Virus record (IMG/VR): IMGVR_UViG_3300005842_000006
Coordinates: 1-37,410 of that record
Source: a virus
Direction: 5' to 3' (one strand)
Length of the DNA: 37,410 nucleotides
The notes below the pieces were generated by a model, which worked only from the letters and a program-made list of their open reading frames with translations, was not told the DNA's origin and did not search any database. Below, in pieces: positions 3,040 to 28,486 of this stretch (positions are counted from its first letter, which is position 1; the number at the start of each line of letters is the position of its first letter). The translations under genes were made by a program, and so were the position numbers.

Positions 3040-4434
3040 ATGGTTCAATACATAAAACAAGGTAACATTTTTGGAAGAATAGGAACTGGTATCGGGAAAG
3101 GATTAGCCGAGCAACTACCTAAAGAGATCGAAAGAAGCCGACTTGCTTCGGGGTTACAAAATTTTGAGAAGGAATCTGGAGATCTTACCCCTATACAACA
3201 ATTGGCTAGACTTTCCTCTATTCCTGGAATTACGCCACAGATGATTCAGTCATTTTCTGAATTAGCAAAGGTTCAGAATCAAGGAAATGCTTATCGAAAA
3301 GGCGCTGGTGGTAATCCACGTCCAGGACAGCAGGCAGCAGGAATGCAACCGCAAGCTTCTCCTAGTGGGGCTCCTGAAATAAGAGATGTTCAGTTTGCTA
3401 ATTTACAGCCTCAACAAGGTGGTCAACAAAGACAAAACATGCCACCTGTCGGACAGGTAAACAATCAGCAGCAAACACCCAATGCACCCCCTAATCAAAA
3501 CGTTCCTCAAGTAGCAGAGGGGAATGCTTTGAATCGACAGAATCTTACACGTCTACCATGGACGCCACAACAGAGACAGGAAACTATAGCCAATTACATT
3601 GATCAAGGGTTTTTGCCTGATCAAGCAAGAGATTTGCAACAAGATGATGAATCACGAGATTTGGCAGAGCCTGGGGCTTACAAGCAACGTCAAGCAGATA
3701 TCAAGGAAGCAAAAGGAGAAGTCAGAGACACATTAAAACGTCATCTCGAAACAAAACTGCAGAAGGCAGGAGAAAACGTCTATAAGGATGTCGAAGGGCC
3801 TATGATTCTTGCTGCAGAAAGAGGGATGATTAGAGATTTAATCAAAAATCCAAAGGCAGACATTGATAATGTAGCCAACGATTGGTCTGAGCGGCTTTAT
3901 AGGACTGCTATTGCTAAAGATAAAATGAGAACATTAGGAAAAACAACAGGGCTGGAAAACTTCCTTAAAGGAGATTCTTCTCATAAAAAACTCAAGGAAT
4001 ATCAAGAAATATTTAAAAGATCAGGAAATCTTGAGGAATTTCAGAATATTCTTAAAGGGGAAGATTTTGGAATGTCTGCCCAGGCGGCAGCCAGCGTGGC
4101 TTATCCTCCTAATCAGAAAATAAATAAATACTTATCATATTATAAATCTTCAACGCCTACAAATTATCAACCCGAAACTAAACTTCAGGAAGCCAAGAAA
4201 GCGGCTATCGAAATTGAAAATGATATCGGCCCTGATGATAGTGTTCTGGCAATAGTGAGAAGGCTTTCTGAAAGAGATCCCTATTTTGATCAACAATCTT
4301 TTCTGGATCAAATTTCCGAAGACAAAGACCAATTAGGATTGAATGAAAGACAGAGGTTGGAATTGGCCGAGGGGGCGAAAGGCATTCTTCCTAACTGGGC
4401 AGATCTTCTTTACCTTCCAATTTTTAGGAGATAG
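3040..4434 (+). CDS. Candidate internal virion (ejection) protein, large, Q/P-rich
   Basis: A 464-aa protein with a helical N-terminus containing a short Gly-rich amphipathic segment (FGRIGTGIGKGLAEQLPK). A long low-complexity Q/P/N-rich linker follows at about residues 85-165, then a mostly helical charged C-terminal half. No enzymatic motif is visible, in particular no lysozyme or transglycosylase signature. It begins 2 bp after the previous stop and ends 2 bp before the next start. Ejection protein is the best contextual guess. Confidence 0.65.
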   Translation: MVQYIKQGNIFGRIGTGIGKGLAEQLPKEIERSRLASGLQNFEKESGDLTPIQQLARLSSIPGITPQMIQSFSELAKVQNQGNAYRKGAGGNPRPGQQAAGMQPQASPSGAPEIRDVQFANLQPQQGGQQRQNMPPVGQVNNQQQTPNAPPNQNVPQVAEGNALNRQNLTRLPWTPQQRQETIANYIDQGFLPDQARDLQQDDESRDLAEPGAYKQRQADIKEAKGEVRDTLKRHLETKLQKAGENVYKDVEGPMILAAERGMIRDLIKNPKADIDNVANDWSERLYRTAIAKDKMRTLGKTTGLENFLKGDSSHKKLKEYQEIFKRSGNLEEFQNILKGEDFGMSAQAAASVAYPPNQKINKYLSYYKSSTPTNYQPETKLQEAKKAAIEIENDIGPDDSVLAIVRRLSERDPYFDQQSFLDQISEDKDQLGLNERQRLELAEGAKGILPNWADLLYLPIFRR

Positions 4435-16515: not shown

Positions 16516-16645
16516 AAGGGCTAGACACACAAGGAAGGACTAGACACAAGGGCTAGACACTTCACTTTATAGGATATTGGTGGATCCCATTGCATAGACA
16601 CCAGAATCTTACAATATCCTATCATTTAGTGTCTAGCCCTTTGTG
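16516..16645. repeat. Origin- or operator-like region: TAGACAC iterons in a long inverted repeat
   Basis: Three direct copies of AAGG(G/A)CTAGACAC lie at 16516, 16535 and 16548, and one inverted copy, AGTGTCTAGCCCTT, at 16628-16641. A lone TAGACAC lies at 16595. Between copy 3 and the inverted copy sits a perfect 11-bp inverted repeat, ATAGGATATTG (16569-16579) with CAATATCCTAT (16612-16622), so the arms form one large imperfect palindrome around a 32-nt centre. It lies directly before the replication initiator, fitting an initiation site or an autoregulatory operator bound by that protein. Confidence 0.7.
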
Positions 16646-16678: not shown

Positions 16679-17644
16679 GTGACGCAGTCAGAAATAATCT
16701 CAGGATTTAATTTAAGCGTAGATCAAGGAATCGCACAAGCTCTTGGAATAGAGGCGGCCTTCATTTTTAATCATATTATTTATTGGCTTAGGATAAACGC
16801 CGACAAGCGAGATGTAGAAAAAATCGAAGGCAAATATTGGATGTATGAGACCCAGAAAGAAATGGCGGAATTTTTTGGCTTTTTGGATGAAGACAAAGTC
16901 TGTAGAGGAATAAAAAAGTTGATCGAATCAGGATTGTTAATAAAAAAATGTTTGAGTAAAAATCCTTTCGACAGAACCTACTCTTATACAGTGACAGATC
17001 AGGGGTTAATCAAAAAAAGCTTACGAAACCCCCCAATTTGCGGAATGCAGACCCCCCAATTTGCGGAATCTGATACCCCCCAATTTGCGGAATGTATATA
17101 TACAACAGAAGACCAAGAGAAAACCAATATAACAGCAGCAGCAAAACTACCTGCTGCTGCTCTTTCCAAAGACAAAAATAAAACACAGACAAAGCAGTTG
17201 CTTGAAAAAACCGAGCAAAAAAAAAAGAAGCCGGCTCACTTTCCCATATACGAATGCTTGAAAGATTTAGACCTTAAGCATCACGAAAAAATTCAGCTTA
17301 CACGACTTAATGCGGAAGAAAGAATGATAGAAGCGGTTAAACTTTCAAAGTCTAAGAAGATCCCACCAGATAATTTGGCCGGATTCCTTCATTGGGCGGC
17401 CACCAATGGAATAAAATGCCCATCACCAAGGGAGGATACAGATCGAGAAAATAAAGAGCTTGCTGAGCTCGTAAAGAAGAAATTCAGCCATCCTAATATT
17501 TTCATTGAAGTGCTCAGCAAAAACGTTGAGTTTGTGTTTTGTGCAGCCCAAAAAGATCCTATTGTGATAAATTACTCTGAGCGCGGGTTTAAAGATAAGC
17601 TAGATAACTGCATAAAAACTCTTTGCTTCAAGGAAGTGAAATGA
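16679..17644 (+). CDS. Phage replication initiator, winged-helix N-terminus
   Basis: A 321-aa protein starting at GTG (AAAGGAG 7 bases upstream). Residues 1-110 follow the winged-helix pattern of phage and plasmid replication proteins: LGIEAAFIFNHIIYWLRINA, GKYWMYETQKEMAEFF, IKKLIESGLLIKK and the wing FDRTYSYTVT. Residues 110-190 are a low-complexity linker whose DNA carries three iterons. Residues 190-321 form a helical, charged domain that may recruit host replication proteins, as lambda O does through P. No helicase or primase motif is present. Lambda-O-like architecture is inferred from the iterons and domain order. Confidence 0.75.
   Translation: MTQSEIISGFNLSVDQGIAQALGIEAAFIFNHIIYWLRINADKRDVEKIEGKYWMYETQKEMAEFFGFLDEDKVCRGIKKLIESGLLIKKCLSKNPFDRTYSYTVTDQGLIKKSLRNPPICGMQTPQFAESDTPQFAECIYTTEDQEKTNITAAAKLPAAALSKDKNKTQTKQLLEKTEQKKKKPAHFPIYECLKDLDLKHHEKIQLTRLNAEERMIEAVKLSKSKKIPPDNLAGFLHWAATNGIKCPSPREDTDRENKELAELVKKKFSHPNIFIEVLSKNVEFVFCAAQKDPIVINYSERGFKDKLDNCIKTLCFKEVK
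17029..17093. repeat. Three identical 18-bp iterons inside the initiator gene (candidate origin)
   Basis: CCCCCCAATTTGCGGAAT occurs exactly at 17029-17046, 17052-17069 and 17076-17093, periods 23 and 24 bp (about two helical turns). The first copy is read in a different codon frame from the other two, so it is the DNA and not the protein that is conserved. A palindromic GTATATATAC follows at once, then an AT-rich stretch and a hairpin AGCAGCAG/CTGCTGCT. Lambda has its origin iterons and AT-rich side in the middle of gene O in the same way. Confidence 0.85.
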
Positions 17645-18790: not shown

Positions 18791-19261
18791 ATGATCAATT
18801 GGACACTACAAGCAATTCCTATCAAGGAACTGAAAGAACATTCAAAAAATCCTAGGTACATAACGAAAGAGCAAAACCAGCATCTCACATCATTGATTTC
18901 TAAGTTTGGTCTGATCGAAAAACCCATTGTGAATCTAGATCGCACAATCATCGGCGGCCACCAGCGCATCAAGATTCTAAAGAAGATGAAAACAAAAGTA
19001 GTGGAATGTTGGGTACCAGATCAACATCTATCTGAGGATGATATAGATCACTTATGTATTGGCCTCAACCTAAACCAGGGGGAATTTGATTATGATATCC
19101 TCGCAAACGAGTGGAATCCAATAGATCTCCTTAAGTACGGATTTTCTGAAAAACAACTTCTAGGAACATGCAAAGAGGCAGAAGATATTTTAAACGAAGA
19201 AGAAAAGAGAAGCAGCAGCACCAAGAAAAAAGAATGTCCTAATTGTGGGCATGCATTCTAA
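18791..19261 (+). CDS. ParB-like nuclease-domain protein with C-terminal zinc ribbon
   Basis: A 156-aa protein. Residues 7-95 follow the ParB/sulfiredoxin fold: IPIKELKEHSKNPR at the start and the nucleotide-binding motif GGHQR at residues 55-59. Residues 149-152 (CPNC, in CPNCGHAF) are half of a zinc ribbon. In many phages this ParB-like domain heads a DNA methyltransferase; here no methylase motifs follow, so it is either a stand-alone DNA-binding/NTPase protein or a stripped version. CAAGGAGAAGC gives a strong ribosome site. A partition role is not supported, as no ParA partner is seen. Confidence 0.7.
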   Translation: MINWTLQAIPIKELKEHSKNPRYITKEQNQHLTSLISKFGLIEKPIVNLDRTIIGGHQRIKILKKMKTKVVECWVPDQHLSEDDIDHLCIGLNLNQGEFDYDILANEWNPIDLLKYGFSEKQLLGTCKEAEDILNEEEKRSSSTKKKECPNCGHAF

Positions 19262-21291: not shown

Positions 21292-21873
21292 ATGACAGGT
21301 AAGAGAATAGGATATATAAGAGTCAGCACGTCTGATCAGAACCCAGATAGGCAACTTGAAGGAATAAAATTAGACAAGAAGTTTATAGACTATGCATCTG
21401 CCAAATGCACGAATAGACCGCAACTTAAAAACATGCTTGAATTTGTGCGAGAAGATGACACGGTAATAGTCCATAGCATGGATAGGTTGGCAAGAAACCT
21501 ATTTGACTTAAGAAATCTAGTTGACTCATTAGTCAAACAAAAGGTTCAGGTTCAATTCATAAAGGAAAATCTCCAGTTTAATGGATCCGATTCCGCCATG
21601 TCTAATCTATTACTTTCTCTTATGGGCGCGTTCGCTGAGTTCGAATATGCCTTCATTAAAGAAAGACAGAGAGAAGGTATTGCTGTCGCAAAAAAACAAG
21701 GAAAGTTTAAGGGATCTAAACACAAACTGAACCATGAGAAAATTGAGCTTCTAAGACAGAGAATGCAATCACGCGATAGCAAAAGCAAGATTGCTGAGGA
21801 ATTTGGAATTTCTCGCTTTACTTTATATAGATATTTGGAAAAAATGCAAAACCAGGTGAAAAATGACGGATAG
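21292..21873 (+). CDS. Small serine recombinase (resolvase/invertase family)
   Basis: A 193-aa recombinase of the normal length for Hin/Gin/TnpR enzymes. The catalytic Ser12 lies in YIRVSTSDQ, active-site arginines in R10 and SMDRLARN (R65, R68), the E-helix region at about 100-135 and a C-terminal HTH (SKIAEEFGISRFTLYRYL, residues about 165-182). It could resolve multimers of a circular genome, invert a segment such as the fibre genes, or integrate. It lacks the long C-terminus of phage large serine integrases. No flanking crossover sites were recognised. Confidence 0.9.
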   Translation: MTGKRIGYIRVSTSDQNPDRQLEGIKLDKKFIDYASAKCTNRPQLKNMLEFVREDDTVIVHSMDRLARNLFDLRNLVDSLVKQKVQVQFIKENLQFNGSDSAMSNLLLSLMGAFAEFEYAFIKERQREGIAVAKKQGKFKGSKHKLNHEKIELLRQRMQSRDSKSKIAEEFGISRFTLYRYLEKMQNQVKNDG

Positions 21874-28375: not shown

Positions 28376-28458
28376 AGTCCTATAGCATCAATTGGAAGAG
28401 CATCTGGATAGGGGTAAAGCTCAGCCAGAAGAGTGTTGGTTCGAATCCAACTAGGACA
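28376..28458 (+). tRNA. tRNA-like cloverleaf with bulged D arm and 17-nt anticodon loop
   Basis: Acceptor GTCCTA (28377-28382) pairs with TAGGAC (28452-28457). The D arm is GC(A)TC/GAGC with a bulged A and loop AATTGGAA holding the usual GG. The anticodon stem TCTGG/CCAGA (28403-28407, 28425-28429) encloses 17 nt instead of 7. The T arm is perfect: GTTGG-TTCGAAT-CCAAC (28435-28451), loop on consensus. The bases GCTCAGCCAGAAGAGT can also fold as a second D-like arm, so the middle may be a duplicated 5' half. No anticodon can be named. It lies in the gap between two virion-operon genes. Confidence 0.6.
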
Positions 28459-28486
28459 ACTTTATTTTCAAACAGTAAGAGGTTTT

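Follow-up and report, generated by a model that had tools for sequence, protein, structure and literature searches.

The replication initiator locus

The window analysed here comprises all 37,410 bases of an IMG/VR virus record. The presence of RecE- and RecT-like recombination genes, of a terminase gene and of a P22-type portal gene marks it as a tailed phage. The portal protein has matches of only about 22% identity, and these lie in phages of several proteobacteria and one cyanobacterium. The replication initiator gene was recognised through PHROG matches and is laid out as follows.

16679..17644, + strand: replication initiator gene, 321 amino acids, GTG start
16679..17026, + strand: winged-helix DNA-binding domain in the AlphaFold2 model, residues 1-116 (fold about 15-116)
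17029..17046, + strand: iteron 1, coding NPPICGM, starting in codon phase 3
17052..17069, + strand: iteron 2, coding TPQFAES, starting in codon phase 2
17076..17093, + strand: iteron 3, coding TPQFAEC, starting in codon phase 2
17094..17103, + strand: GTATATATAC, adjoining iteron 3 and identical in the closest relative, L002
17033..17242, + strand: linker predicted to be disordered, residues 119-188 (pLDDT below 50 in the full-length model)
17243..17641, + strand: C-terminal domain, from about residue 190, moderate-confidence model

The N-terminal domain belongs by profile to the phage replication initiation proteins of PHROG 11233 ('replication initiation protein', E 4e-18, residues 13-132). 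The initiator also matches PHROG 6493, a DnaD-like helicase loader (5e-13), and PHROG 678, 'replication initiation O-like' (8e-8), where 'O-like' is only the label of that family. A Pfam search with the initiator gave nothing at E<=0.01, and the N-terminal part alone gave nothing up to E 1. When genomes were scanned with a narrow alignment of the initiator, 21 loci were found at 27-38% identity, none of them close. Searches with the C-terminal domain of phages, IMG/VR, Pfam, PHROGs and the sequences of the PDB found no relative, and a fold search with the low-confidence full-length model gained nothing for it.

Elsewhere in the window we observed a ParB-like protein at 18791-19261 (PHROG 620, 1e-24), and Pantoea phage AH07 likewise has a ParB annotation near its initiator. 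There is also a serine recombinase of the resolvase/invertase type at 21292-21873 (PHROG 125, 6e-57). An Rfam tRNA match of 40.6 bits, not reported by ARAGORN, lies 3' of the portal gene at 28376-28459.

An iteron array within the coding sequence

The 18-bp sequence CCCCCCAATTTGCGGAAT occurs exactly three times in the window, each time inside the initiator gene. An earlier note on this DNA had described three exact copies with periods of 23 and 24 bp, the first in a codon frame different from the other two, which divide the winged helix from the C-terminal domain. All of this was borne out: the copies start at 17029, 17052 and 17076, iteron 1 is in phase 3 and iterons 2 and 3 are in phase 2, and in the predicted models the array separates the winged helix, which ends at residue 116, from the C-terminal domain. 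The array spans codons 117-139 and encodes part of the disordered linker. With the preceding A, the exact identity is 19 bp in all copies, and it reaches 20 bp between copies 1 and 3. Each unit contains the imperfect inverted repeat CCCCAATTTGCGG, in which 5 of the 6 pairs are complementary.

No further copy of CCCCCCAATTTGCGGAAT was found in the window with up to 3 mismatches, and 100 dinucleotide shuffles gave none. In 300 trials of synonymous-codon shuffling that kept the protein, the longest repeat was at most 16 nt (mean 9.2), compared with the 20 observed. Scanning the entire window for repeats with periods of 12-59 bp revealed no second array of comparable strength. Because the DNA is identical across codon phases, selection, or copying, acts on the DNA itself. 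Outside the window, an IMG/VR scan for the exact iteron gave as its only other hit an exact 16-bp match in L001, but this is a single copy in a long unrelated open frame and we regard it as chance. A search for a double-iteron pattern retrieved an already known relative and nothing else.

Arrays across the initiator family

Relatives of the N-terminal domain were collected by a profile search of IMG/VR and from phage and plasmid records. This gave 77 non-redundant genes, and the survey set consists of the 75 among them whose winged-helix end allowed an alignment. Strong short-period repeats, defined as at least 11 of 14 positions matching, occur at 0-100 nt past the winged helix in 59-70% of the 75 genes, fall to 31% in the following 50 nt and are lower beyond, with 0-8% in bins away from the winged-helix end. 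In a chain search, 62 of the 75 genes have an array above the 99th percentile of shuffles (49 at a stricter cut-off), while control stretches upstream and downstream score at most 4 and 5. The remaining 13 relatives have no array above the cut-off. The earlier note had proposed checking whether related phages carry repeats at the corresponding position, and the answer is strongly positive.

The spacings are also regular. Among 154 of them, 95 are 22 bp, 34 are 23 bp and 17 are 24 bp. The usual periods, 22 and 23, cannot be divided by three, so that successive copies fall into different codon frames, and 57 of the 62 arrays occupy more than one frame (three frames in 38, two in 19, one in 5). 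The letters of the iterons differ greatly among phages, while the place, the spacing and the half-palindromic form are kept; commonly, the iterons are inverted repeats around an A-tract. Contigs of named bacteria, for example of Clostridia and a Hyphomicrobiales bacterium, have the same pattern. Our survey of about 75 relatives shows an intragenic array design which, judged from these sequences, most of the initiator family appears to use. In the open-access literature we found no cross-phage survey of intragenic iteron architecture.

Linkage of the array to the DNA-binding domain

In 1,378 pairwise comparisons, the similarity of the iterons tracks that of the N-terminal domain (partial rank correlation, rho, 0.22) and not that of the C-terminal domain (-0.01). 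The former correlation is modest, and it is descriptive, since pairs share members and are not independent. The clearest single comparison is with the closest relative, L002, found in a different metagenome. It shares about 91% identity with the window in the N-terminal domain and has an unrelated C-terminal domain, the similarity ending shortly past the array. In L002 all three iterons differ from those of the window by C in place of T at unit position 10 and by nothing else, while 45 of 387 positions differ in their surroundings. Copy 1 still encodes the same residue, and copies 2 and 3 each exchange F for S. A second such case is seen between L062 and the L055 group, where every one of the three copies differs by one base. 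Copies do not always change together, as other related pairs (L063 and L064) have changes in single copies. As a separate observation, L002 has a DnaC-like helicase loader gene after the initiator (3807-4358) and the window has none there; the C-terminal domain of the initiator differs in step with this gene.

DNA beside the array

The earlier note also stated that the iterons are followed by GTATATATAC and AT-rich DNA. The first part holds, as GTATATATAC directly follows iteron 3, and it is possible that this is the start of an unwinding element. The second part is weak: measured over 40 bp, the AT content after the array is 57-65%, compared with a window mean of 60%. For the family overall, AT content is 8 to 12% higher just after the array. 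The check by GC skew that had been suggested was uninformative, as no inflection is seen in the window at 17 kb. No DnaA-box cluster was found. Like the local AT content, these two results speak neither for nor against an origin. In many relatives, including L045, L053, L061 and L090, we observed AT-rich in-frame repeats of 12 or 24 bp after the iterons, which resemble ACCAGATAATAA or CCAGATATAAACA (coding PIPDINTD). These are a possible unwinding element of the initiator family.

Relation to lambda O and RepA_N initiators

The AlphaFold2 model of the N-terminal domain has a mean pLDDT of 87.5. In a Foldseek search its best PDB match is 4pql (E 4e-4, TM-score 0.57), followed by 4pt7, 5kbj and 4pta, though TM-scores of about 0.57 are moderate and general winged-helix proteins rank close behind. 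From the entry titles, we take 4pql and 5kbj to be RepA_N initiators of staphylococcal plasmids. The entries 4PTA and 4PT7 are RepA_N initiators of such plasmids (PMC7145576). The N-terminal model thus has the winged-helix fold of RepA_N. By profile search, the window protein has no RepA_N match, and this domain is absent from the 25 Pfam families listed for 63 relatives. Likewise, when profiles of 11 and 63 members were compared with lambda O by hhalign, there was no meaningful match. Since no sequence homology to lambda O was detected and the N-terminal model is nearest to RepA_N, the term 'lambda-O-like' used earlier is apt for the architecture and not for demonstrated descent. The plan is common to lambda O and RepA_N, and without sequence support filing the protein under either family is unjustified.

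Intragenic iteron origins are textbook knowledge for lambda and are known for RepA_N plasmids. The window has the layout of such an origin, with repeats inside the initiator gene and between the DNA-binding and C-terminal domains. Lambda has 18-bp iterons in the middle of its gene as well, the first at codon 117 in both, with a spacing of 20-24. Each lambda iteron is an imperfect inverted repeat (PMC7466680), like those of the window, and in other phages the N- and C-terminal parts have separate matches, as under module exchange. However, in lambda there are four iterons and the AT-rich tract is clear (78% AT over 40 bp), whereas the window has three and no distinct tract. Beside the initiator of the window, no lambda P-like gene was recognised.

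The Rep protein of pSK41 (319 aa) is composed of a binding domain (1-120), a linker coded by the origin (121-199) and a C-terminal domain (200-319); its first 120 residues bind four boxes in the centre of the gene, its last 120 contact primase, and the linker can be deleted when the origin is supplied elsewhere (PMC5703833). Like the window, the staphylococcal multiresistance plasmids pSK41 and pTZ2162, of the RepA_N type, have an N-terminal winged-helix fold, a protein of about 320 aa and sites inside the gene that code a linker, dispensable in pSK41 and predicted to be disordered in the window. The RepA_N iterons are semi-palindromes around an A-tract (PMC7145576), as in the present family, and in both the C-terminal domains vary between groups (PMC5703833; PMC7145576). 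The differences are that RepA_N belongs to plasmids and the window to a phage, that the C-terminal domain is another one and that the window has no RepA_N Pfam match. By analogy, the array would work like both the lambda ori and a RepA_N origin.

Two further systems bear on the linkage of domain and sites. In hybrid initiators of the pPR9 type, an HTH_36 N-terminal domain is joined to the pSK41 C-terminal domain; the N-terminal domain and the origin are exchanged as a single block, and these initiators have been described as relatives of a phage replication protein carrying pfam13730 (PMC5703833). HTH_36 (pfam13730) is weakly matched by 20 of 63 relatives of the window protein, but the window protein itself has no match. 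In RepA of the PLE satellite of Vibrio cholerae, the RepA_N domain and the iterons co-vary and the C-terminal domain does not (PMC8263062). PLE differs in that its iterons are non-coding, about 30 bp long and outside repA.

Interpretation as a probable replication origin

We suggest that the three 18-bp iterons inside the initiator gene are very probably the replication origin of this phage, with the initiator as their predicted ligand. This builds on an array whose copies shift frame, which keeps its place across the family and is linked to the N-terminal domain, and on the fold predicted for that domain. On the sequence evidence, and supported by the family comparison, the array is best read as an iteron origin inside the gene, to which the N-terminal domain would bind. 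In such a mechanism the winged-helix domain would bind each imperfect-palindrome iteron, and the spacing of 23-24 bp, about two helical turns, would bring the copies to roughly the same face of the double helix. Once assembled, the complex would strain and open the adjoining DNA on the GTATATATAC side. The C-terminal domain, held on the disordered linker that the iterons encode, may then bring in the replicative helicase, its loader or primase, the recruiting role that we take it to have.

Alternatively, the repeats could be operator or incompatibility sites, at which the initiator or another DNA-binding protein of the phage controls expression or copy number, with the origin elsewhere. Plasmid iterons are known to play control roles too, and the leader of the initiator gene has a conserved hairpin which suggests layered control. 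This long hairpin (16549-16641, z -6.0) is just 5' of the ribosome-binding site of the initiator and may control its expression. L002 has a hairpin at the matching place (about 2812-2963, z -4.5), with the outer stem TAGACAC/GTGTCTA kept and a completely different loop. Before the hairpin, at 16516-16561, there are three direct AAGGGCTAGACAC-like copies, with an inverted copy at 16628-16641; L002 seems to retain only one direct copy. However, the iteron array is within the gene and far from its start, it is tied family-wide to the initiator's own DNA-binding domain, and the window offers no other array, so we consider control sites improbable.

It is more doubtful still that the array serves chiefly as a recombination joint at which C-terminal modules are swapped. 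The loss of similarity between the window and L002 shortly past the array would fit, but a joint needs no 22-24-bp spacing, no inverted symmetry and no sequence specific to the N-terminal domain, and the exchange of C-terminal modules is more readily understood as a consequence of the binding domain forming a single unit with its sites. Least probable of all is a proline-rich tandem-repeat linker with a role in the protein and none in the DNA: the segment does encode protein, and its product is predicted to be disordered, but identical DNA in different codon phases gives different peptides, 57 of 62 family arrays use more than one frame, synonymous shuffling fails to yield the array, and in L002 one base is altered in all copies together although this changes the protein in two.

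Returning to the origin bound by its own initiator, we tentatively propose that the binding domain and the intragenic iterons could form one travelling, co-evolving specificity unit. Its copies would change together at single positions, which might keep origins distinct or escape rivals that target the origin, and C-terminal modules would be exchanged beyond the array. The simultaneous change of all iteron copies offers a ready test of the co-evolution of initiator and origin. The array also has to be read as protein while its frame rotates, which makes it a clean natural example of DNA that is selected both through and against coding. Origins of this kind are known and the present one is a new member, and a rule that holds across the family is more useful than a single case. 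An array with a 22-24-bp period just after the winged helix would make the origin predictable from sequence across a large initiator family, mostly of uncultured phages.
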